Shown here: positions 2,520-24,129 of the stretch, piece after piece | How the letters are laid out: the number at the start of each line of letters is the position of its first letter | How positions within the stretch are numbered: position 1 is the stretch's first letter | Source of the DNA: a virus | DNA length: 27,344 bases | Reading direction: 5' to 3' (one strand) | Virus record (IMG/VR): IMGVR_UViG_3300035670_001055 | Coordinates: 1-27,344 of that record | The notes under the pieces: generated by a model | What the model was told of the DNA's origin: nothing | Database searches by the model: none | Seen by the model: the letters and a program-made list of their open reading frames with translations, nothing else | Translations under genes and position numbers: made by a program

Positions 2520-2693
2520 ATGGCCAGCACCAGCGCCACGCTCCGCGACCTGGGCAAGCATGAGCTGAGCTTCACGATCCGCCTGGCTCGGCCGCTGCGG
2601 CTGCGGCTGATGGTGGCTGCGGCCCTGCTGCGCGTCGCCGGCTGGCTGATGGGTGCTGAGACGGTGGTGGAGGTGCGGCAGTCGCTGCGCTGA
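2520..2693 (+). CDS. Small basic hypothetical protein, 57 aa
   Basis: ATG 2520 to TGA 2691-2693 encodes 57 residues beginning MASTSATLRDLGKHELSF. The middle is basic and aliphatic (RLARPLRLRLMVAAALLRVAGWLMG), so it may form an amphipathic or membrane-associated helix. The leader TCATCACCTCATCCCACC is C/A/T-rich with no Shine-Dalgarno sequence, like several other genes here. The stop is directly followed by the junction element at 2695 and then by the portal gene. No family is recognised. Confidence 0.5.
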   Translation: MASTSATLRDLGKHELSFTIRLARPLRLRLMVAAALLRVAGWLMGAETVVEVRQSLR

Positions 2694-2694
2694 C

Positions 2695-2709
2695 CCGGAA
2701 ACCTTCCAC
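2695..2709 (+). promoter_or_regulatory. Junction element copy 1 (upstream of portal)
   Basis: CCGGAAACCTT begins one base after the stop of the 57-aa gene. It is a copy of the repeated junction element, diverging in its 3' half. It lies about 15 bases before the portal's probable GTG start. Confidence 0.5.
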
Positions 2710-2724
2710 CAGAAGCCCTGCGGC

Positions 2725-4230
2725 GTGCTGGTGAAGACGGAACTCGATCACCCGACAGACGATCCATCCCTGCCCAGTTACCGGCATCCCATGCTGCGTG
2801 AGCTGGGCGAGGATCTGCAGCGCGCCTACGACGCCTACCACTGCCTGCGCGGCTGCAAGGATCGCTACCTGCCCCAGGAGCCGAAGGAGCCCGATGACGC
2901 CTACAAGGCCCGGCTCGGTCGCTCCACCTTCTCGGATTTCTACCGCAGCAGCATCACCGCCTTCGCTGGTGTGCTGTCGAAGTTCAGCCTGATCGAGCCA
3001 CCCGACAGCCTGGAGGACGCCAGCGACAACATCGACCTTGAGGGCAACAGCCTCACCGCCTGGTGGCAGCAGGTGGACTCCTGGATGCTGCGGGATGGCG
3101 GCGTGGCGCTCTGCGTCGAGATGCCCGATGGCCTGCCCGGCAGCGCTGCCGAGGAGGTGGCGATGGGTCGCCGGCCCTATCTGCTGGCGCGGCCCCGATC
3201 GAAGGTGCTCAACTGGCGCGTCAGCGTGACCGATGGTGTCGAGACGCTGGAGCGCTGCACCCTGCTGGAGCTGACCGAGGAGCCGGACGGTGACTTCGGC
3301 GTAAAGATGGTGCCCCGTTACCGGGTGATCGGCCGCGGCGAATGGATGCTGTTCGAGATCGAGCGCAACGCCTCGAACGATCTCACCGCCGTGATGGTGG
3401 ATCAGGGCCAGTACCTCGGCGCCAACGGCCAGCCGCTGCCGGTCGTACCGGTGGTCTGGTACGCCTCTGACCAGGCCGGCTTCGGGCAGGGCGAGCTGCC
3501 GCTGCGGCAGGTGGTGGAGCACAGCATCGAGCACTACCAGCAGCGCTCCGACCTGCGGGAGAAGACCCACCGCCTGGCCCTGCCGGTGCCGGTGCGGATC
3601 GGTGCCACGCCACCCGCCCCGGGTGAAGCTCGGCGGGCTGTGGTCCTTGGCCCCAACAGCATCATCGACCTGGATCCCGGCGGCAGCTTCAGCTTTGCCG
3701 AGCCCAGCTGCGCCAGCCTGGGTGAGCAGCGCGCGCAGATCGCTGAGGTTGAGAAGCTGATCAGCCGCCAGACCCTGGGCTTCCTCTACGGCGACCCGGG
3801 CGGCAACAAGACCGCGACGCAGGCGGGCCTGGAGTCGGCGCAGACCGAGAGCACGATCACCCGCATCGCGCAGCGCAAGGCCTCGGCCATGCAGTCGCTG
3901 ATGCAGATCTGGACGCTCTACACCGGCGAGGAACTGGAGCCCGGCGCTGGCCTGAGCATGGCGTCATCGCTGTTCGAGCGGCCCATGGAAGCCGCGGACG
4001 TGTCGCAGCTGCAGCAGCTGACCGGCGGCGACAAGCTGGTGAGCCGCCAGAGCGCGATCGAGGAACTGCAACGCCGCGGCAAGCTCACCGTCACCACCAG
4101 CCCGGAGGAGGAGCTGGAGCGGATCCGGGTGGAGGAGCCTGAGCCGGCTGATCCTGTGGGGCTGAACGACCTGGGCGGGCTGTCGCTGCCGCCCCGCAGG
4201 CCGGTAAAGCCGGACGAGCCGGAAACCTAA
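2725..4230 (+). CDS. Phage portal protein, DUF4055-like, 501 aa
   Basis: The portal is the dodecameric ring at the capsid vertex through which DNA is packaged and ejected. The assignment rests on length (about 500 aa), on position just before a MuF-type gene, and on DUF4055-like features: an N-terminal helical part ending in RYLPQEPKEPDDAYKARL, then FSDFYRSSITAFAGVLSKF near residue 90. A central beta-rich wing (GVALCVEMPDG, VVPVVWYASD) follows, then a long helical stem (VVEHSIEHYQQRSDLREKTHRLALP) and a late segment (KTATQAGLESAQTESTITRIAQRK). An upstream ATG at 2653 would overlap the previous gene by 41 bases; GTG 2725 fits the spacing after the junction element better, and GTG 2731 is also possible. 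The C-terminus PDEPET-stop is formed by the next junction element. Confidence 0.85.
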   Translation: MLVKTELDHPTDDPSLPSYRHPMLRELGEDLQRAYDAYHCLRGCKDRYLPQEPKEPDDAYKARLGRSTFSDFYRSSITAFAGVLSKFSLIEPPDSLEDASDNIDLEGNSLTAWWQQVDSWMLRDGGVALCVEMPDGLPGSAAEEVAMGRRPYLLARPRSKVLNWRVSVTDGVETLERCTLLELTEEPDGDFGVKMVPRYRVIGRGEWMLFEIERNASNDLTAVMVDQGQYLGANGQPLPVVPVVWYASDQAGFGQGELPLRQVVEHSIEHYQQRSDLREKTHRLALPVPVRIGATPPAPGEARRAVVLGPNSIIDLDPGGSFSFAEPSCASLGEQRAQIAEVEKLISRQTLGFLYGDPGGNKTATQAGLESAQTESTITRIAQRKASAMQSLMQIWTLYTGEELEPGAGLSMASSLFERPMEAADVSQLQQLTGGDKLVSRQSAIEELQRRGKLTVTTSPEEELERIRVEEPEPADPVGLNDLGGLSLPPRRPVKPDEPET

Positions 4231-4252: not shown

Positions 4253-4429
4253 ATGTCTGCTGAGACCGTCTACGAAGCCCTGCGCGAGACCATCGCGGAT
4301 CAGACCGCGCTGGACGATGAGCTGAGCATGTTCGAGCTGATCGGCGTCGTGCGCCTGATCGAGGCTGAGCTGATCGAGGCCGCGATGTCCGATGACGACG
4401 ACGACGACGCGGAGCCCGGCCTGAACTGA
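4253..4429 (+). CDS. Small acidic protein, 58 aa
   Basis: The protein is strongly acidic and helical, with six aspartates in a row near the C-terminus (MSDDDDDDAEPGLN). It lies exactly between portal and MuF, and its TGA overlaps the MuF ATG by one base (TGATG, 4427-4431), implying coupled translation. Position suggests a small head-assembly factor, for example a portal or MuF partner. That is inference from context only. The C/A-rich leader lacks a Shine-Dalgarno sequence. Confidence 0.65.
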   Translation: MSAETVYEALRETIADQTALDDELSMFELIGVVRLIEAELIEAAMSDDDDDDAEPGLN

Positions 4430-6588
4430 TGACCCAGACCCCGGGGCCGCGGCGGCTCGTCGACGTTGCCGATGACTTCTCCAGGGCCCTGGACCAGCTG
4501 GAGCGCCGGGCCACCAAGAACACTGTGGCGATGCTGCGGCGTTCCCTGGCGAACGTGCTCGTCGACCTGAAGCGGCACTACGCCAGCTACATCGACGAGC
4601 TGGGCCCGCAGGGCTTCGACCCGGCACGCAACCCGATCCGCCGGCCCGGGGCCTACAGCGCGGCGGAGGCGACCGCGAAGTTCCGGGCGATCACCCTGGA
4701 CGCCCAGCGGTTCATGTCGGATGAGGAGATCCGCCAGTGGACCGCCAGCTACGAACGCGACCTGCGCGAGGCCGCCAGGCTCGGCGGTGAGCTGGGCTTG
4801 CAGCTGCAGACCCTGATGGGCCGCCCGCCCGATGCTGCGCCATTCGCTGGCGCTGATCCCCTGGCGGTGCGTGCTGCAGCAGCGACGACCAGCGCCTACA
4901 TCCAGGGCGAGACCGCCCGGTTCCGCGACCAGCTGGTGCAGATCGTCGGCGAAGGCGCCACCCGCGGCTGGGGCGCAAGCCGGCTGGAGACCAGCATCCG
5001 CCAGGCACTGCGCGGCGCGAAGGATCCGAACGGCATCACCCAGCGGCTGGGCCTGGAGCAGCGGGCAGCGCTGATCGCCCGGTCGGAGCTGGCGAACGCC
5101 TACGCCCAAGGCACCATCAACCGCAGTCGGCAGCAGGGCTACAGCTACGTCCGGGTGCTGGCCAGCAACGACGAGCGGACGTGCCCGACGTGTGCAGCAA
5201 GGAACGGCAGGGTATACCCAATCGACCGGGTGCCGGTGCCGTGGCATCCCCGTTGCGTCTTAGGCGAGACGAAGGTATCGCCCGGACTCCTCGCAGCGGC
5301 GTTCCGCTCCGTGTACCGCGGCGACGTCGTAACCGTACGACTTGCGAGCGGTGAGAGCCTGACAGTCACCGTCGATCATCCGGTGCTCACCCCTGCCGGA
5401 TGGGTCAAGGCGGAAGCTCTCCGCAAGGGCGATCAGGTGGTGGGCCACGGGTTCCACCGAGCGATTCCGCCGGCTGCCGAATCGCCAGACCTCCACGACG
5501 TGCCAGCCACGGCTGAGGAAGTATTCGCGGCGTTTGCCGATGCGTGTGCGATGCCTCCCGTGGCCATGCCAGTGACCCCCTTGGATCTCCACGGCGACGG
5601 GAAGTTCATCGAAGGCGATGTCAATGTTGTACGGGCCGACGGCCTTCTCCAGAGTCACTGGGTGACCGAGACCGGCGATGGCGTCGGCAATGAGAATGGC
5701 GTCAGGCGACGCATTGGATTTAGCCCGCTCGCGACCCTGTGCGATGCGGATGCGGCACTCCTCTGGCATGCGGCGGCCGCGAACGGCAGCGTGAGCCGCC
5801 TCCGTGATGCGCTGGCGCTCTTCCGGGGTGGCCTGAGCCATGCGGAGCAGCATCGCATCGCGGCGGCTGCGTGGCGTGATCCCATGCTTGCGCAGGAGGG
5901 TCGTGATGGTGTTGCGCTGTACCCCGAACTGCTCGGCCACGGCCTTGACGCTGCCGCCATCCAGAAAGGCTTGGATCGCGGCGTCCTCGTCGTAGATGGA
6001 GCGGTTGCCGGTGAGCTTGACGCCGAGCCGCTGGAAGTTCCGGTAGACAACGTTCCTGGACACTCCAAACCGCTCAGCGATCTGATCGACGGTCTGCCCG
6101 GCCTGATGCAGCTGCATCAGATCGTCGGCATTGAGATCAATGCGTTTCATGGATTCGTCTACACGTTCGAGACCTTCTCCGGCACCTATTCCATGGGCGC
6201 GGATGTAAGGATTCTAAGCCAAAACTGCCGGTGCGTGGTGGTGCCCGTCCCCGACGAAGCCGTCCAGGAGCGCGACCCCGACAGCCGCGCCGCCCTGCTC
6301 GACAACGAACGCTGGCAGGAGGAGCACGAGCGCGGCGTGGAGGCCTACGCCGAAGGGCGCCACCGTGAGCGGCTCGATGGCCTGCGCCGGCAACGCGACC
6401 GGCTGAAGGATCCAGGCCTGATCGACGCGATGGATGCGCGGATCGCCCGGCTGGAGCAGCAGGGTCCAGACATGGTGAAGGCCCGGCTCGAACTGAGCCA
6501 GGCCCTGCGGACGCCTACGGCATCGGAGAAGCGGCTGTATCCGCGGAACCCGAAGCCGCTCGGGGAGAGCGTGCCGCTGTTCCCCTAG
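4429..6588 (+). CDS. MuF-like head morphogenesis protein (SPP1 gp7 / Mu gpF type) interrupted by an intein
   Basis: The 719-aa frame holds a 395-aa host protein and a 324-aa insert. The N-extein (residues 1-275) is helical and ends with the family's zinc-like motif: DERTCPTCAARNG (C252, C255) and PWHPR (H273). The C-extein starts at residue 600 with CRCVVVPVP. Joining the two gives HPR-CRC-VVVPV, the conserved H-x-x-C-x-C end of MuF proteins, which shows where the insert sits. Residues 600-719 form a charged coiled-coil-like tail. MuF proteins are minor head proteins bound near the portal, assisting assembly and sometimes ejected with DNA. The start overlaps the stop of the 58-aa gene. Without splicing the motif would be broken, so the intein is probably active. 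Confidence 0.88.
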   Translation: MTQTPGPRRLVDVADDFSRALDQLERRATKNTVAMLRRSLANVLVDLKRHYASYIDELGPQGFDPARNPIRRPGAYSAAEATAKFRAITLDAQRFMSDEEIRQWTASYERDLREAARLGGELGLQLQTLMGRPPDAAPFAGADPLAVRAAAATTSAYIQGETARFRDQLVQIVGEGATRGWGASRLETSIRQALRGAKDPNGITQRLGLEQRAALIARSELANAYAQGTINRSRQQGYSYVRVLASNDERTCPTCAARNGRVYPIDRVPVPWHPRCVLGETKVSPGLLAAAFRSVYRGDVVTVRLASGESLTVTVDHPVLTPAGWVKAEALRKGDQVVGHGFHRAIPPAAESPDLHDVPATAEEVFAAFADACAMPPVAMPVTPLDLHGDGKFIEGDVNVVRADGLLQSHWVTETGDGVGNENGVRRRIGFSPLATLCDADAALLWHAAAANGSVSRLRDALALFRGGLSHAEQHRIAAAAWRDPMLAQEGRDGVALYPELLGHGLDAAAIQKGLDRGVLVVDGAVAGELDAEPLEVPVDNVPGHSKPLSDLIDGLPGLMQLHQIVGIEINAFHGFVYTFETFSGTYSMGADVRILSQNCRCVVVPVPDEAVQERDPDSRAALLDNERWQEEHERGVEAYAEGRHRERLDGLRRQRDRLKDPGLIDAMDARIARLEQQGPDMVKARLELSQALRTPTASEKRLYPRNPKPLGESVPLFP
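5254..6225 (+). mobile_element. Intein in MuF, 324 aa, with an antisense-nested endonuclease gene
   Basis: The intein runs from Cys276 to Asn599 of the precursor. Block A is CVLGETKVS at the N-junction. Block B is SLTVTVDHPVLTPAGW, with the T-x-x-H pattern (TVDH). Block F is HGFVYTFETFSGTYSM, and block G is DVRILSQN followed by Cys +1. Nucleophiles at both junctions (Cys1, Cys+1) and the terminal Asn are present. The usual penultimate His is Gln here, which some inteins tolerate. The sense core between B and F has no LAGLIDADG or HNH motif but contains LDLHGDGKFIEGDVNVVRA, which resembles sequence I associate with other phage inteins. The endonuclease lies on the opposite strand at 5260-6150. 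Confidence 0.88.
5260..6150 (-). CDS. Antisense Vsr-like homing endonuclease nested in the MuF intein, 296 aa
   Basis: Residues about 16-43 are a helix-turn-helix (TVDQIAERFGVSRNVVYRNF) and about 66-92 a second one (VKAVAEQFGVQRNTITTLLR). About 108-140 resemble a NUMOD-type DNA-binding segment (ITEAAHAAVRGRRMPEE). Residues about 148-245 match the Vsr/DUF559-type nuclease fold: YNIDIAFDELPVAVEIQGG, HWHGHGRH, then RREYFLSRGWHVVEVW. Likely catalytic residues are D177, E188, H193 and H195. The last 50 residues lie opposite the intein N-block and may be unconstrained. Vsr-like homing endonucleases are known near split inteins; placement antisense inside a contiguous intein is not something I know. 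Its codons align exactly with the sense codons. No good Shine-Dalgarno precedes ATG 6150 and no promoter is evident, so expression is unproven. GC-rich DNA gives many empty antisense frames; the domain content is what makes this one credible. Confidence 0.82.
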   Translation of the reverse strand: MKRIDLNADDLMQLHQAGQTVDQIAERFGVSRNVVYRNFQRLGVKLTGNRSIYDEDAAIQAFLDGGSVKAVAEQFGVQRNTITTLLRKHGITPRSRRDAMLLRMAQATPEERQRITEAAHAAVRGRRMPEECRIRIAQGRERAKSNASPDAILIADAIAGLGHPVTLEKAVGPYNIDIAFDELPVAVEIQGGHWHGHGRHRTRIGKRREYFLSRGWHVVEVWRFGSRRNRSVEPVAHHLIALAESFRLDPSGRGEHRMIDGDCQALTARKSYGYDVAAVHGAERRCEESGRYLRLA

Positions 6589-6941
6589 GGAGTCGGGTTC
6601 GTGCCCTCAAACTTTTGCTTCAGACGCTCATACTGCCAGCGTTCTCGGTTTTCTTGTTCAATCCGTTCGCGGTCCGCTTTCTTGGCGCGAAGCTCTTGCA
6701 GTTCTTCAGTCGTGAAGAATCCACTCTGAACTAGGAAGCCGTCATCGAACTCGGAAATGAGTTCAGATGTGTCGATGTCTTCTTCGCTTACGGACACAAA
6801 CTCGTCGTAGGCCCTGAGCCACAGCGATGAGTATTGATTGTCGTCTGCAAAAACAAATAGCAACTTGTCATTGTATCCCTTTGCCTCTGCGTAGCCGGTG
6901 AGCCTCTTGCCTATGGCATCGCTGAGCTTGATGTACTCCAT
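6585..6941 (-). CDS. Lower-GC accessory (moron-like) protein, 118 aa
   Basis: This is a minus-strand gene of visibly lower GC than all its neighbours. It encodes a soluble acidic protein: the N-terminal half has alternating hydrophobic strands (KLLFVFADDNQYSSLWLRAY) and acid clusters (EEDIDTSELISEFDDGF), and the C-terminal third is a charged coiled coil (TEELQELRAKKADRERIEQE). The family is not recognised. The stop lies within CCTAGG, the same palindrome that holds the MuF stop on the other strand, so the two genes converge with a four-base overlap. The upstream leader on its own strand is C/A-rich (CAACCACCACCGCACAAACCACC). Composition and orientation fit a recently gained cargo gene. Confidence 0.7.
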   Translation of the reverse strand: MEYIKLSDAIGKRLTGYAEAKGYNDKLLFVFADDNQYSSLWLRAYDEFVSVSEEDIDTSELISEFDDGFLVQSGFFTTEELQELRAKKADRERIEQENRERWQYERLKQKFEGTNPTP

Positions 6942-6966: not shown

Positions 6967-6988
6967 GCCGGGAGCCGAAGCCCCCGGC
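6967..6988 (-). terminator. UUCG-tetraloop hairpin ending the cyAbrB transcript
   Basis: Read on the minus strand, GCCGGGGGC (6988-6980), loop TTCG and GCTCCCGGC (6975-6967) form nine pairs, one of them G-U, closed by a very stable C(UUCG)G tetraloop and followed by TTCAACC. It lies between the cyAbrB stop (7002) and the next minus-strand gene (start 6941). The T-tract is short, so termination strength is uncertain. Confidence 0.6.
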
Positions 6989-7001: not shown

Positions 7002-7457
7002 TCAGAATGGCGTGCGCTCGCCAGCGCCGACAAGCTCCCGCTCGGAAGTCGCCACCACCACGGGCGCCTCAGCCACCACCACAGGCGCCGCCTCAGCGAC
7101 GACGGCCGCAGCCTTGCGCAGGGTCAGCGTGCCGGTGGCGGCATCGTGGGCGATGTCCACCCGATCGCCGGGCTCCAGGCCCAGCAGGGTGCTGTAGCCG
7201 GCCGAGACGGGGATCACGCCGGTCTTGCTGACGGCGACATTCCAGGCCAGGGGCTTGCCTTTCTTCGGCTTGGCGGCCACCGGCGGCAGCACCAGGCCGT
7301 GGGCAGCGTTGAGGGCCTCAAAGAAGGCGGTGAAGGCGGGCTTGCCGTCCTTGCGGGTGTAGCCGCAGGCGATGGCGATCTGATCGCGCGGCGCCTGGCC
7401 GAGCTCCTTGACCTTCGCGAGCAGATCAGGGCCGGTGAGCATGGTGGATTGAGACAT
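7002..7457 (-). CDS. cyAbrB-type (cyanobacterial AbrB-like) transcription regulator, 151 aa
   Basis: The N-terminal region MLTGPDLLAKVKELG (6-20), then IAIACGYTRKDGKPAFTAFFEALNAAHG, is the signature of the cyanobacterial AbrB family. The AbrB-like DNA-binding part follows at about 71-115 (WNVAVSKTGVIPVSAGYSTLLGLEPGDRVDI), placed C-terminally as in cyAbrB rather than N-terminally as in Bacillus AbrB. A 35-residue Ala/Val-rich tail is extra. cyAbrB proteins are global regulators of carbon/nitrogen balance and other processes in cyanobacteria. A copy inside a phage structural region suggests control of phage genes or interference with host regulation. The gene is divergent from the 68-aa gene at 7499 across a dyad, and is followed by a UUCG terminator. 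ATG 7457 is used; ATG 7442 is an alternative. Confidence 0.85.
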   Translation of the reverse strand: MSQSTMLTGPDLLAKVKELGQAPRDQIAIACGYTRKDGKPAFTAFFEALNAAHGLVLPPVAAKPKKGKPLAWNVAVSKTGVIPVSAGYSTLLGLEPGDRVDIAHDAATGTLTLRKAAAVVAEAAPVVVAEAPVVVATSERELVGAGERTPF

Positions 7458-7474
7458 CAGGGCAGGAAAGCTGG

Positions 7475-7493
7475 CCTAAGCCGTTAGCTTAGG
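7475..7493. promoter_or_regulatory. 7-bp perfect dyad in the divergent cyAbrB / 68-aa gene gap
   Basis: CCTAAGC (7475-7481) and GCTTAGG (7487-7493) are exact reverse complements around CGTTA, in the 41-base gap between divergent genes. Each half contains CCTAAGC, also found in the junction element. The right half extends on the minus strand to GGAACCTAAGC (7497-7487). It is a good operator candidate, possibly for autoregulation by the adjacent cyAbrB protein (inference). Confidence 0.5.
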
Positions 7494-7498
7494 TTCCG

Positions 7499-7705
7499 AT
7501 GCGAACCAGCACCACCCTGCCGCCTGATCTGCGCAGCTTCCTGCTGCTGCATGCCTGCGTCTCCGCCCGCGATGAGGACGCCACCCGCCAGGCCCTGCGC
7601 GATGCCGCAGTGAGCCTGCCGCAGGGACAGGCCCACAAGGTCGCCTCAGTGCTGCATGCCTCGATCAGCGGCGGCGGGCGCCTGTGGCTGTCGCGGCTGG
7701 CTTGA
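7499..7705 (+). CDS. Hypothetical small protein, 68 aa
   Basis: ATG 7499 encodes a helical, alanine-rich 68-residue protein (PPDLRSFLLLHACVSARDED; ATRQALRDAAVSLPQGQAHK) without membrane segments. It diverges from cyAbrB and shares its 41-base regulatory gap. The family is not recognised. The 3' end lies ten bases from the end of the convergent minus-strand gene at 7716. Confidence 0.5.
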   Translation: MRTSTTLPPDLRSFLLLHACVSARDEDATRQALRDAAVSLPQGQAHKVASVLHASISGGGRLWLSRLA

Positions 7706-8223: not shown

Positions 8224-8724
8224 ATGCCAGCCCCGATCCCCACGCTCAACCCCCTGTGGCGGACCACCCCGCGGGATGACCGGGAGCTGATCCGCAGCTA
8301 TGCGCTGTGGCCGGTCTCGGCCTACAACCTCACCCAGCTCACCTCGGTGCTCAACCGGGCGGCCGACACCAGCGCCGCGACCGTGACGCAGGTGCAGGCG
8401 TGGATTGATGAGATCGAAGACCTCGAGCAGGACTGGGCCGACAAGGTGAGCGACGGCACCGCCCACCTGGGCAACGTGCAGAGCTACCAGGGCCCCGCGC
8501 CCGGCACCACACTCAGCCGCGAGGACCGGCAGAAGCGAGCCGATGTCCTGGAGTGGGATACGAGCCTGCTGCAGGTGAGCTACCAGGCCGGCACGCGCGC
8601 GGACTCCACCGCTGGTGGCGTGCTGCATGCCCGGGTGGCGAGCCTCAAGCACAAGGTGCTGCAGACGCTCGGGATCAAGGCCTACGACGGCGGCGACGGG
8701 GATGCGGCGCTGGTGAGGTGCTGA
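8224..8724 (+). CDS. Probable head-tail connector / neck protein, 166 aa
   Basis: A mostly helical protein with a N-terminal segment (DRELIRSYALWPVSAYNLTQL), a central coil (WIDEIEDLEQDWADKVS) and a C-terminal part (VASLKHKVLQTLGIKAYDG). It is not recognised by sequence. It opens a run of three tightly packed genes whose third member looks like an HK97 gp10-type protein, so an adaptor or connector role is inferred from position and size. It ends one base before the next GTG start. Confidence 0.5.
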   Translation: MPAPIPTLNPLWRTTPRDDRELIRSYALWPVSAYNLTQLTSVLNRAADTSAATVTQVQAWIDEIEDLEQDWADKVSDGTAHLGNVQSYQGPAPGTTLSREDRQKRADVLEWDTSLLQVSYQAGTRADSTAGGVLHARVASLKHKVLQTLGIKAYDGGDGDAALVRC

Positions 8725-10462: not shown

Positions 10463-10983
10463 ACCAGCAGCTGCACTGGGCCGAGCTGCCGGTGGCAGCC
10501 CTGGCGAAGCTGACGCTCGAGATCCACGCCAAGGAAGGCGCCACGATCCCGCCGCTGGCGGACTTCTGCCTGTTCCGCAACCGCGAGCCCGGCGAGCAGC
10601 CACCTGCCGATGCCGGCGCCGCGATGCTGGCCCTGATCGCCGCGCGGCAGTTCCCGAGCTTCGCGCTCACGTTCTACGAGCCGCTGCTGCAGGCCGGCCA
10701 GGGACAGCCGGCGCCATCCCCGCTGGCCCTGGTGGCCGACGATGCGATCCTGCTGGCGCCGCGGCGGCAGGGCGAGGCCTGGTGCGGGTTCCTCATCGCC
10801 GAGCACTCGGCAGCGGATCAGGTGCGGGCGTTTCGCTGGCCTGGGGATCAGGAGCCGGTGGCGTGGCTTGCCGTTGCTCCGCCCGCTGGAGGAGCGGCTG
10901 CAGTGTGGGCGGAGGCAGCTGCATGTCTGCCCATTCGCGAATCTCCGAGCGCACCCGCGCCGCTGCCATCTCCGCCTCCGTGA
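9746..10983 (+). CDS. Tail assembly chaperone, GT-like frameshift fusion, about 412 aa
   Basis: A -1 shift at G GGA AAG (10297-10303) joins residues 1-186 of the G-like protein to a second frame that opens at 10291, just after its own stop at 10288-10290, and continues to TGA 10981-10983. The added 226 residues begin ARAGGLPEPTDWGALYWRC and include DRFGDLTLDYILQAIEEGER and LNQQLHWAELPVAALAKLTL. This looks like real protein, whereas the frame-0 tail does not. In lambda, the T part recruits the tail tube protein to the tape measure. The last 191 bases overlap the antisense AP2-like gene, and the C-terminus is proline-rich and probably disordered. Without frameshifting, this second frame has no good start before ATG 10492. 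Confidence 0.75.
10297..10303 (+). other. Programmed -1 ribosomal frameshift site, G GGA AAG
   Basis: The heptamer GGGAAAG is in the exact phase for X XXY YYZ slippage in the G-like frame (Gly GGA 10298-10300, Lys AAG 10301-10303). It is the same heptamer used in lambda G/GT. The -1 frame opens only 13 bases upstream of its last base, and it stays open for about 690 bases. Confidence 0.8.
10318..10342 (+). other. Candidate stimulatory hairpin for frameshifting
   Basis: CTCCCC (10318-10323) pairs exactly with GGGGAG (10337-10342) over a 13-base loop, starting 15 bases after the slippery heptamer. The distance is longer than the usual 5-9 bases, so its role is uncertain. Alternative pairings in this GC-rich segment are possible. 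Confidence 0.3.
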
Positions 10984-11095
10984 TGCTGCCGAAGTACCCG
11001 AGGCTCCAGTACCGGCCGGCCCACCAGACGCGGGCCTGGAACGGCCGGCGCTTGACGTGGGGGCAGTAGCAGACGCCCTTCGGGTAACAGGCCAC
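10793..11095 (-). CDS. AP2-like DNA-binding domain protein, 100 aa, antisense to the GT end
   Basis: GTG start (11093-11095) preceded in frame by a TAG stop. Residues about 15-50 (RRPFQARVWWAGRYWSLGYF, then TEAEMAAARVRSEI) match the AP2/integrase-DNA-binding pattern: three strands with aromatic and arginine contacts, then a helix. Such domains often occur in phage HNH homing endonucleases, but no HNH motif is seen; the remaining 50 residues are Pro/Ala-rich and lie opposite the GT C-terminus. An N-terminal C-x-C (CYC) precedes. A minus-strand copy of the junction element lies about 20 bases upstream of the start. It may be a free-standing regulator or a remnant of a mobile endonuclease. Confidence 0.65.
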   Translation of the reverse strand: MACYPKGVCYCPHVKRRPFQARVWWAGRYWSLGYFGSITEAEMAAARVRSEIREWADMQLPPPTLQPLLQRAEQRQATPPAPDPQASETPAPDPLPSARR

Positions 11096-23035: not shown

Positions 23036-24129
23036 GCCCTGAGGTCAACCTGGACCTGGAGGATGTGCCGTTCGCCATCCTGGAGGTAGTGAAGGCCAGG
23101 ATCCTGGCGAACCGTCGCCGGCTGGGGCTGAGCCAGGAGCAGGCGAAGCCACGGCCATCCACCAGGCCGCGCGCGCAGTTCAGGAAGGCCGGGGCCAGCA
23201 GCAGGGGCTGGCGGAAGCCGCAGCATGGGGCGGGGGTGTTGGGGGATGATCTGAGGTTTGGGATTACTTCATATAGCTGGGGAAGCAACGCGTTTGCAAC
23301 CGGCACATTTAATCCAACAAGTCAATGGACAGGCGAAGTATGGTGCGGCGATTATTCGCGCTCGCTGAAGACTGATCCTGTTACCTTTTCTCAAGATCCT
23401 GGCGGTCGACCGGCCACGCCAGTCTTCGTCTTGCCAGTTGACAATGATACAGGTATCGTGGTCACCTTTTTTTATGGAAAGCAATTCTTTCCCGGTGCAC
23501 CAGGCTTCAATGAAGTAAGAGACCGAGCAGCATTTGTTGTAAATAGAAACAGAATACGGCGAATATCGGTCCCATCAATCGTTAATAGCTGCATTAATAC
23601 GTGGGAAACGGGGTCGCCGCCGGCGGTCCTCCCTGCAGATATTTTCGGCACTTTAATAGAAGCAAGCGAAGGAATGACAGAGTATTCTCTTTGGCTTAAC
23701 TATACGCCAACAATCTTTAACAGGCTTAACATTCTAAATACTTTTACATCGCAGATCAAGCCATTCCCGACAGGCAAGAACTTAGTTACCAGAGATCCTC
23801 GTCAGGGCATCTATGCTAATAGCAAAACTAACGTCACAAAGGCAGACGCACGATTCTGCTTTGCTGAGTGGCTTGGTACTGTAGAAGACTGGGAGGCTAA
23901 CCCGTTCAACGACTCGCTTCTCGTTCGCCAGCCCGAAGAGGACATTGACGCGCCGAGCTATTATAAAGCCATAGAAGATAGTGGTAACTTTGCAGAGCTA
24001 GGCTATTACTGGGATATCAACAGCCGACCCGGCCCTGGAGACATCTTCTTCTGGGACTGGGACGACCCCGACTACTGCCGCGCCATGTGCCTGGCCTTGG
24101 GCTTCAGTGAAGCTGACCTAACCCCATGA
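23032..24129 (+). CDS. Hypothetical chimeric tail-region protein, 365 aa
   Basis: Residues 1-75 are GC-rich in coding and basic (FAILEVVKARILANRRRLGL; RPSTRPRAQFRKAGASSRG). From about residue 76 the coding DNA is clearly lower in GC and the protein becomes aromatic and polar (RFGITSYSWGSNAFATGTFN; YGKQFFPGAPGFNEVRDRAA). The last 25 residues (DIFFWDWDDPDYCRAMCLALG) return to GC-rich codons. No family is recognised. The gene is coupled to the 130-aa gene by ATGA. The composition break suggests a variable host-interaction domain placed between conserved ends. Confidence 0.55.
   Translation: MSPEVNLDLEDVPFAILEVVKARILANRRRLGLSQEQAKPRPSTRPRAQFRKAGASSRGWRKPQHGAGVLGDDLRFGITSYSWGSNAFATGTFNPTSQWTGEVWCGDYSRSLKTDPVTFSQDPGGRPATPVFVLPVDNDTGIVVTFFYGKQFFPGAPGFNEVRDRAAFVVNRNRIRRISVPSIVNSCINTWETGSPPAVLPADIFGTLIEASEGMTEYSLWLNYTPTIFNRLNILNTFTSQIKPFPTGKNLVTRDPRQGIYANSKTNVTKADARFCFAEWLGTVEDWEANPFNDSLLVRQPEEDIDAPSYYKAIEDSGNFAELGYYWDINSRPGPGDIFFWDWDDPDYCRAMCLALGFSEADLTP

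Follow-up and report, generated by a model that had tools for sequence, protein, structure and literature searches.

The window analysed here, meaning the whole stretch of DNA, is a linear IMG/VR record of 27,344 bases from a virus that very likely infects cyanobacteria, and almost certainly it encodes a genuine full-length homologue of cyAbrB, with an N-terminal CGY domain and an AbrB-type domain. cyAbrB proteins are DNA-binding regulators typical of cyanobacteria and have been proposed to act as nucleoid-associated proteins that regulate genes for carbon metabolism, hydrogenase and stress. The window protein is a new phage variant of this known family and a cyanobacterial parallel to the silencer homologues borne by other phages. 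Phage cyAbrB genes occur in several virus lineages, where they take recurring places among the head and packaging genes, and they are missing at the same junction in other viruses. Many uncultured picocyanobacterial viruses have such an altered copy and probably use it to steer expression during infection.

Virus and host

The portal protein of the window is 39-40% identical to those of the cyanophages PSS2, S-CRES1 to S-CRES3 and S-CBS2, and the next phages among the portal matches listed fall below 30% identity; by this gene, the nearest cultured relatives are all cyanophages. No close DNA relative of the window was found among the phage records. Judging from the portal sequence, this viral contig is a distant relative of PSS2, S-CBS2 and S-CRES1, which have cyanobacterial hosts but in which no full-length cyAbrB was found. 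The family PF14250, to which cyAbrB belongs, was detected in one of 14 control genomes, namely Synechococcus elongatus. Because of the portal relatives and this near restriction of PF14250 to cyanobacteria among the control genomes, a cyanobacterial host is very likely, as the earlier reading made from the sequence alone (hereafter, the sequence-only reading) had supposed. In a sample of the phylum, most genomes with PF14250 have two matches, and five Cyanobiaceae genomes (G001-G005) have 4-13 each.

Identification of the cyAbrB homologue

The minus-strand ORF at 7002-7457 encodes 151 amino acids, of which residues 44-103 match the AbrB-like Pfam family PF14250 with an E-value of 2.9e-7; the score of 30.9 bits exceeds the curated cut-off, which is 25 bits. 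The NCBIfam and PHROGs profiles gave no match to this ORF, and a sequence search of the PDB returned exosporium matches alone, which were discarded as spurious. Alignment to the six closest relatives begins at the internal Met6, which makes 7442 the probable translation start and gives a protein of 146 amino acids. When a profile of the window-type proteins was compared with a profile of 95 host cyAbrBs using hhalign, the two aligned over 110 columns with an E-value of 1e-31. Together with the Pfam score, this match bears out the cyAbrB identity proposed in the sequence-only reading; of the two outcomes that the reading had named as refuting, a failed profile search and a non-cyanobacterial host, neither came about. 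Like cyAbrB1 and cyAbrB2 of cyanobacteria, the window protein thus has about 110 homologous columns, the N-terminal domain with CGY and the AbrB-type domain; unlike them, it lacks an acidic tail, ends in an Ala/Val/Pro tail with a REL-type tip, lies on a long branch and is borne by a phage.

The first 52 residues alone matched a host copy with an E-value of 6.7e-12 (computed with a search space of one million), all 95 host sequences being reported, whereas the C-terminal part alone reached 0.0088. The PF14250 scores of relatives were 31.5, 41.5 and 36.1 bits, and a phage type of about 105 amino acids, described below, scored 77.6 bits. By comparison with that last value, the AbrB half of the window protein (30.9 bits) is strongly diverged, and for this reason its DNA targets may differ from those of the host protein.

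In the AlphaFold2 model, confidence was limited to the N-terminal domain (pLDDT about 93 over residues 1-40). AbrB, SpoVT and MazE formed the sole coherent group among the Foldseek matches of the model, with probabilities up to 1.00, yet with E-values of 0.08 and worse, none reaching 0.05. By Pfam and by this fold match, the AbrB-type domain is still recognisable. Bacillus AbrB and SpoVT and E. coli MazE have a SpoVT-AbrB type fold like that of the DNA-binding domain of the window protein, at about 15-21% identity over the aligned part, and are not known to have the cyAbrB N-terminal domain. We infer a role for the window protein in infection and, with the fold match as basis, DNA binding and oligomerization.

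The cysteine of the CGY motif (codon at 7365-7367) is kept in all 60 distinct phage cyAbrB sequences, the window's included. In Synechocystis AbrB2, a single conserved cysteine is glutathionylated, affecting oligomerization and DNA binding (PMC4264147); on the basis of that report and of the alignment, the CGY cysteine is probably the same residue. An acidic tail, defined as at least four acidic residues among the last 12 and counted over distinct sequences, is present in none of 29 phage tails compared with 81 of 119 host tails. The Ala/Val-rich tail that the sequence-only reading had described is real.

Table 1. Positions of the window cyAbrB gene, its parts and its surroundings
Feature	Position	Strand	Remarks
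Portal	2653..4230	+	phrog_145, E 6e-80; used for phage placement
MuF-type head gene with intein	4429..6588	+	context
118-aa ORF between MuF and cyAbrB	6585..6941	-	G+C 0.50, surroundings about 0.70
Hairpin after the cyAbrB stop	6967..6988	-	GCCGGGGGC-TTCG-GCTCCCGGC, without a U-run
cyAbrB homologue	7005..7442	-	146 aa from the conserved start Met6 (probable); the listed ORF 7002-7457 includes the stop and an upstream ATG
Ala/Val/Pro-rich tail	7005..7118	-	predicted disordered; REL-type tip at the end, seen in relatives
PF14250 AbrB-like stretch	7149..7328	-	Pfam residues 44-103 and fold match
N-terminal cyAbrB domain	7293..7442	-	about 50 aa, three predicted helices, contains the CGY cysteine
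Divergent spacer between cyAbrB and the 68-aa ORF	7443..7498	.	likely place of a promoter; window-only palindrome at 7475-7493
Conserved 68-aa divergent neighbour	7499..7705	+	76-96% identical in L002, L005, L006, L007 and L209

Phylogeny and selection

A phylogeny set against host cyAbrB1 and cyAbrB2, suggested in the sequence-only reading, placed the window-type proteins in one clade on a long branch, with a support of 99 in a quick tree and of 100/100 in a second tree. The copy is as divergent from the host proteins as had been claimed, and its clade lies outside both main host clades, which are presumably cyAbrB1 and cyAbrB2, no reference sequence having named them. In the quick tree, the type of about 105 amino acids grouped with host copies of Cyanobiaceae. 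The two independent phage captures read from that tree were withdrawn: a tree with all phage sequences in one clade was 43.95 log units higher, with an AU p of 0.907. Since the latter tree is better and is not rejected by the AU test, both one capture and several captures are compatible with the data. Between window-type genes, dN/dS over the core is 0.19-0.52 (NG86), and the core of the phage cyAbrB is under purifying selection.

Genomic setting of the window-type gene

The cyAbrB gene of the window follows MuF and the 118-aa ORF and is divergent from the 68-aa ORF. It runs antisense to the structural genes, a point that the sequence-only reading had not made. It lies upstream of an ORF at 8224-8724 (+), which we take to be the neck gene of the sequence-only reading; the position between MuF and this ORF stands, but the ORF had no family match for a neck role. 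The check, proposed in the sequence-only reading, of whether other cyanophages carry the gene at the same place was positive for five relatives (L002, L005, L006, L007 and the more distant L209, with a portal 58% identical), in which cyAbrB follows MuF in antisense orientation and diverges from the 68-aa gene, and a second group of carriers has it at another recurring place. In L005 and L007, MuF and cyAbrB are adjacent genes with ends within 1-4 bases, relative to which the low-G+C 118-aa ORF is extra in the window. The distant relative L208 has a different antisense gene at the cyAbrB place. The 68-aa ORF had no PHROG match and was assigned to no family, and tblastn found the gene in none of the other collected loci, the second group included.

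The closest other cyAbrBs (L003 and L004) are located before TerS and TerL. A third arrangement, with an antisense cyAbrB after the portal and before the scaffold and MCP genes, was found in contig L193, whose genome comes from the family group of a Cyanobium. A similar portal is present in 51 of 300 Cyanobiaceae genomes; among the 20 neighbourhoods read, L193 alone contains cyAbrB, and the idea that prophages with a similar portal are regular carriers was dropped.

The sequence-only reading had also assigned the gene its own dyad and terminator. The spacer does contain an exact palindrome, CCTAAGC-N5-GCTTAGG, which is its sole one, but this palindrome is absent from every other locus compared (L001 being the window itself), including the nearest relative, L002. 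It was therefore rejected as a conserved operator, and autoregulation of cyAbrB through it is unlikely, since the dyad is not conserved. A promoter scan of the spacer called none. The hairpin after the stop codon is strong, folding of 47 nt giving -20.2 kcal/mol (z -2.4), and is recognisable in L002, but no canonical terminator was called there. Both regulatory signals are weaker than the sequence-only reading had it.

A second group of carriers at the packaging genes

A broader scan yielded 129 viral contigs carrying relatives; 80 of these were kept, 74 of them new. On 68 of the 74, a cyAbrB of about 105 amino acids is found next to TerL and/or portal, in the same orientation. Six further contigs (L092, L096, L106, L114, L136 and L146) make up the rest of the 74 and resemble host fragments, with a host-type cyAbrB and no surrounding phage genes. 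The TerL, portal, MuF, TerS and MCP genes of this group were identified from their resemblance to known types and to their counterparts in the window, and MuF was checked by PHROGs. Where cyAbrB lies between TerL and portal, the gaps are about 20-40 bases. This type is like the window copy in being borne by phages near packaging genes, in the absence of the acidic tail and in the kept CGY; it differs in its grouping with Cyanobiaceae in the quick tree, in being co-directional within the packaging operon and in having no long tail.

In a TerL-anchored sample with 77 readable junctions, cyAbrB was present in 31, as a rule starting some 22 bases after TerL, a fraction that may be biased upwards in a sample ranked by similarity to the TerL of a cyAbrB-carrying phage. 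The remaining 46 junctions are empty or hold other small genes, and many close phages have no cyAbrB. As 31 of the 77 junctions hold the gene, cyAbrB is accessory cargo at a preferred slot and no structural necessity. The small genes often seen at the cyAbrB-free TerL-portal junctions (L223-L280) encode, for example, a short protein that includes a hydrophobic segment, a protein that is PP-loop-like by eye (L247) and a basic protein (L263).

The N-terminal domain in cultured cyanophages

No full-length cyAbrB was found in cultured phages in INPHARED. The N-terminal domain is present in three of them (E-values of a profile of this domain, with a search space of one million): alone, as a 52-aa protein of Prochlorococcus phage P-TIM68 (1.9e-14; L360, 869-1027); in Synechococcus phage B23, as a fusion with other sequence (8.5e-9; L361, 854-1282); and likewise fused in a protein annotated as anti-restriction in Synechococcus phage WH11-B (4.9e-8; L362, 880-1440). 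Two of these carriers are Kyanoviridae phages and one is an Autographiviridae phage. The phage cyAbrB seems to have been overlooked, because no full-length copy turned up among cultured phages and the protein matches no PHROG profile. In the literature on cyAbrB, on AbrB of cyanophages and prophages and on phage-encoded AbrB, covered incompletely and mostly as titles and abstracts, we recognised no report of a phage cyAbrB.

Proposed function and alternative explanations

The explanation that we favour, and to which we would give roughly an even chance, is that the phages have acquired a nucleoid-associated-type regulator that modulates the expression of host and phage genes, either as a partner or as a competitor of host cyAbrB. 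It is proposed because of the parallel with H-NS and Lsr2, homologues of which are carried by phages of other bacteria, such as Lsr2 of mycobacteriophages, CgpS of CGP3 and H-NS of phage EPV1 (PMC7074111, PMC8612146). In those cases a phage has a copy of a nucleoid-associated or silencer protein of the host, as it would here if cyAbrB is such a protein in the host, but they concern other protein families and host phyla, and the effect was tested for some, whereas the phage cyAbrB is known by sequence. In Synechocystis, cyAbrB2 binds broadly to AT-rich regions and represses, and it has been proposed to be nucleoid-associated and functionally like H-NS and Lsr2, with a preference for AT that is not fully shown in vitro (PMC11368403). 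That silencer-type role was proposed for Synechocystis, whereas the host of the window is presumed to be a picocyanobacterium.

If phages have indeed acquired such a regulator, a cyAbrB gene would have been captured by cyanophages and retained as accessory cargo. In the window lineage, the protein would be made during infection from a divergent transcription unit of its own; in the second group, its gene would be expressed along with the packaging genes. The protein would form an AbrB-type oligomer and bind DNA broadly, like its host relatives, and could then join, displace or replace host cyAbrB on host and phage DNA, shifting the balance between silencing and expression as proposed for the phage Lsr2 and H-NS homologues. 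Through the kept cysteine, its activity might be open to the redox state of the cell, and it would be distinguished from the host protein by its new tail and by the lack of the acidic one. That the phage cyAbrB interacts with host cyAbrB is a guess. The roles named in the sequence-only reading, which are resetting host metabolism, controlling late genes and maintaining lysogeny, are conjectural.

Alternatively, the protein could be a local regulator that acts mainly on phage promoters, as a late-gene repressor or in prophage maintenance, with no general role in the host. We see this as a real but minor possibility: it agrees with the separate divergent transcription unit of the window lineage and with the tyrosine integrases of two records, one over the cut-off (L122) and one with a PHROG integrase match at 2.8e-9 and a Pfam score of 22 bits, below the cut-off (L006), from which some carriers may be temperate. 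Against it, the sole palindrome of the spacer is not conserved, a co-directional gene inside a packaging operon, as in the second group, is odd for a lysogeny repressor, and 13 of 15 tested records, which may be incomplete, have no integrase of the tyrosine type, the one sought. With two positive records of 15, a tyrosine integrase was rejected as a general feature of carriers, and the case for their lysogeny is thin. We consider it unlikely that the protein is a counter-silencer, forming dominant-negative mixed oligomers that remove host cyAbrB from DNA and free phage genes from silencing. Truncated H-NS acts as a dominant negative by this route (PMC7074111), the N-terminal domain is better kept than the AbrB half, and proteins with this domain alone or fused exist in cultured cyanophages; but the window protein retains its AbrB-type domain, and oligomerization through the N-terminal domain is an assumption, that of cyAbrB2 being expected but biochemically unproven (PMC11368403).

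The slot between TerL and portal in the second group, and that just before TerS in L003 and L004, would suit a packaging or virion DNA-binding protein that condenses DNA or serves as an accessory of terminase or portal. This is very unlikely, as 46 of 77 TerL junctions work without cyAbrB and the window-lineage gene is antisense and outside the operon. The 68-aa ORF adjoins cyAbrB in the window and its five relatives, and AbrB and MazE have a common fold, so the two genes might be thought an antitoxin-like pair; with a divergent arrangement, no operon and a neighbour that is not found in the other loci, we hold this to be highly improbable. The prospect that host DNA was mis-assembled or mis-binned into viral contigs, and is meaningless for the phage, is practically nil. 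It would account for the six contigs with a host-type cyAbrB but is already contradicted for the window copy by a position that is common to independent contigs; moreover, this copy is surrounded by phage genes, differs from every host copy and is under selection.

A wider reading, against which we lean while thinking it conceivable, is that cyanophages repeatedly use a cyAbrB toolkit and that, in a cyanobacterial equivalent of the H-NS/Lsr2 arms race, their proteins would rewire or poison host cyAbrB through the N-terminal domain. Its parts would be, in siphovirus-like packaging regions, full-length proteins that have the redox cysteine but no acidic tail, and, elsewhere, the N-terminal domain alone or fused. 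A phage copy that is retained at recurring places in several lineages would offer a direct way to study how cyanophages cope with the chromatin and the redox state of the host. The natural variants without an acidic tail are ready-made tools for testing the roles of the cyAbrB domains, and the theme of phage-borne host silencers, known from H-NS and Lsr2, is extended to cyanobacteria and to an unrelated protein family.

Other features of the window

The intein in the window MuF comprises about 324 amino acids (5254-6225, +); MuF of L002, L005, L006, L007, L208, L209 and L210 has no intein. On the opposite strand, a 296-aa ORF (5260-6150, -) with matches to HTH and to Vsr/MTES_1575-type nucleases covers nearly the whole intein, an arrangement suggestive of a homing endonuclease gene that lies antisense within it. 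In the tail region, an antisense ORF of 100 amino acids (10793-11095, -) is 73-93% identical in L002, L006 and L007; it has weak PHROG matches to parts of HNH endonucleases and is AP2-like by eye. Within an ORF of 365 amino acids, the G+C content at 23250-23750 is 0.43-0.49, compared with 0.65 for the window overall.
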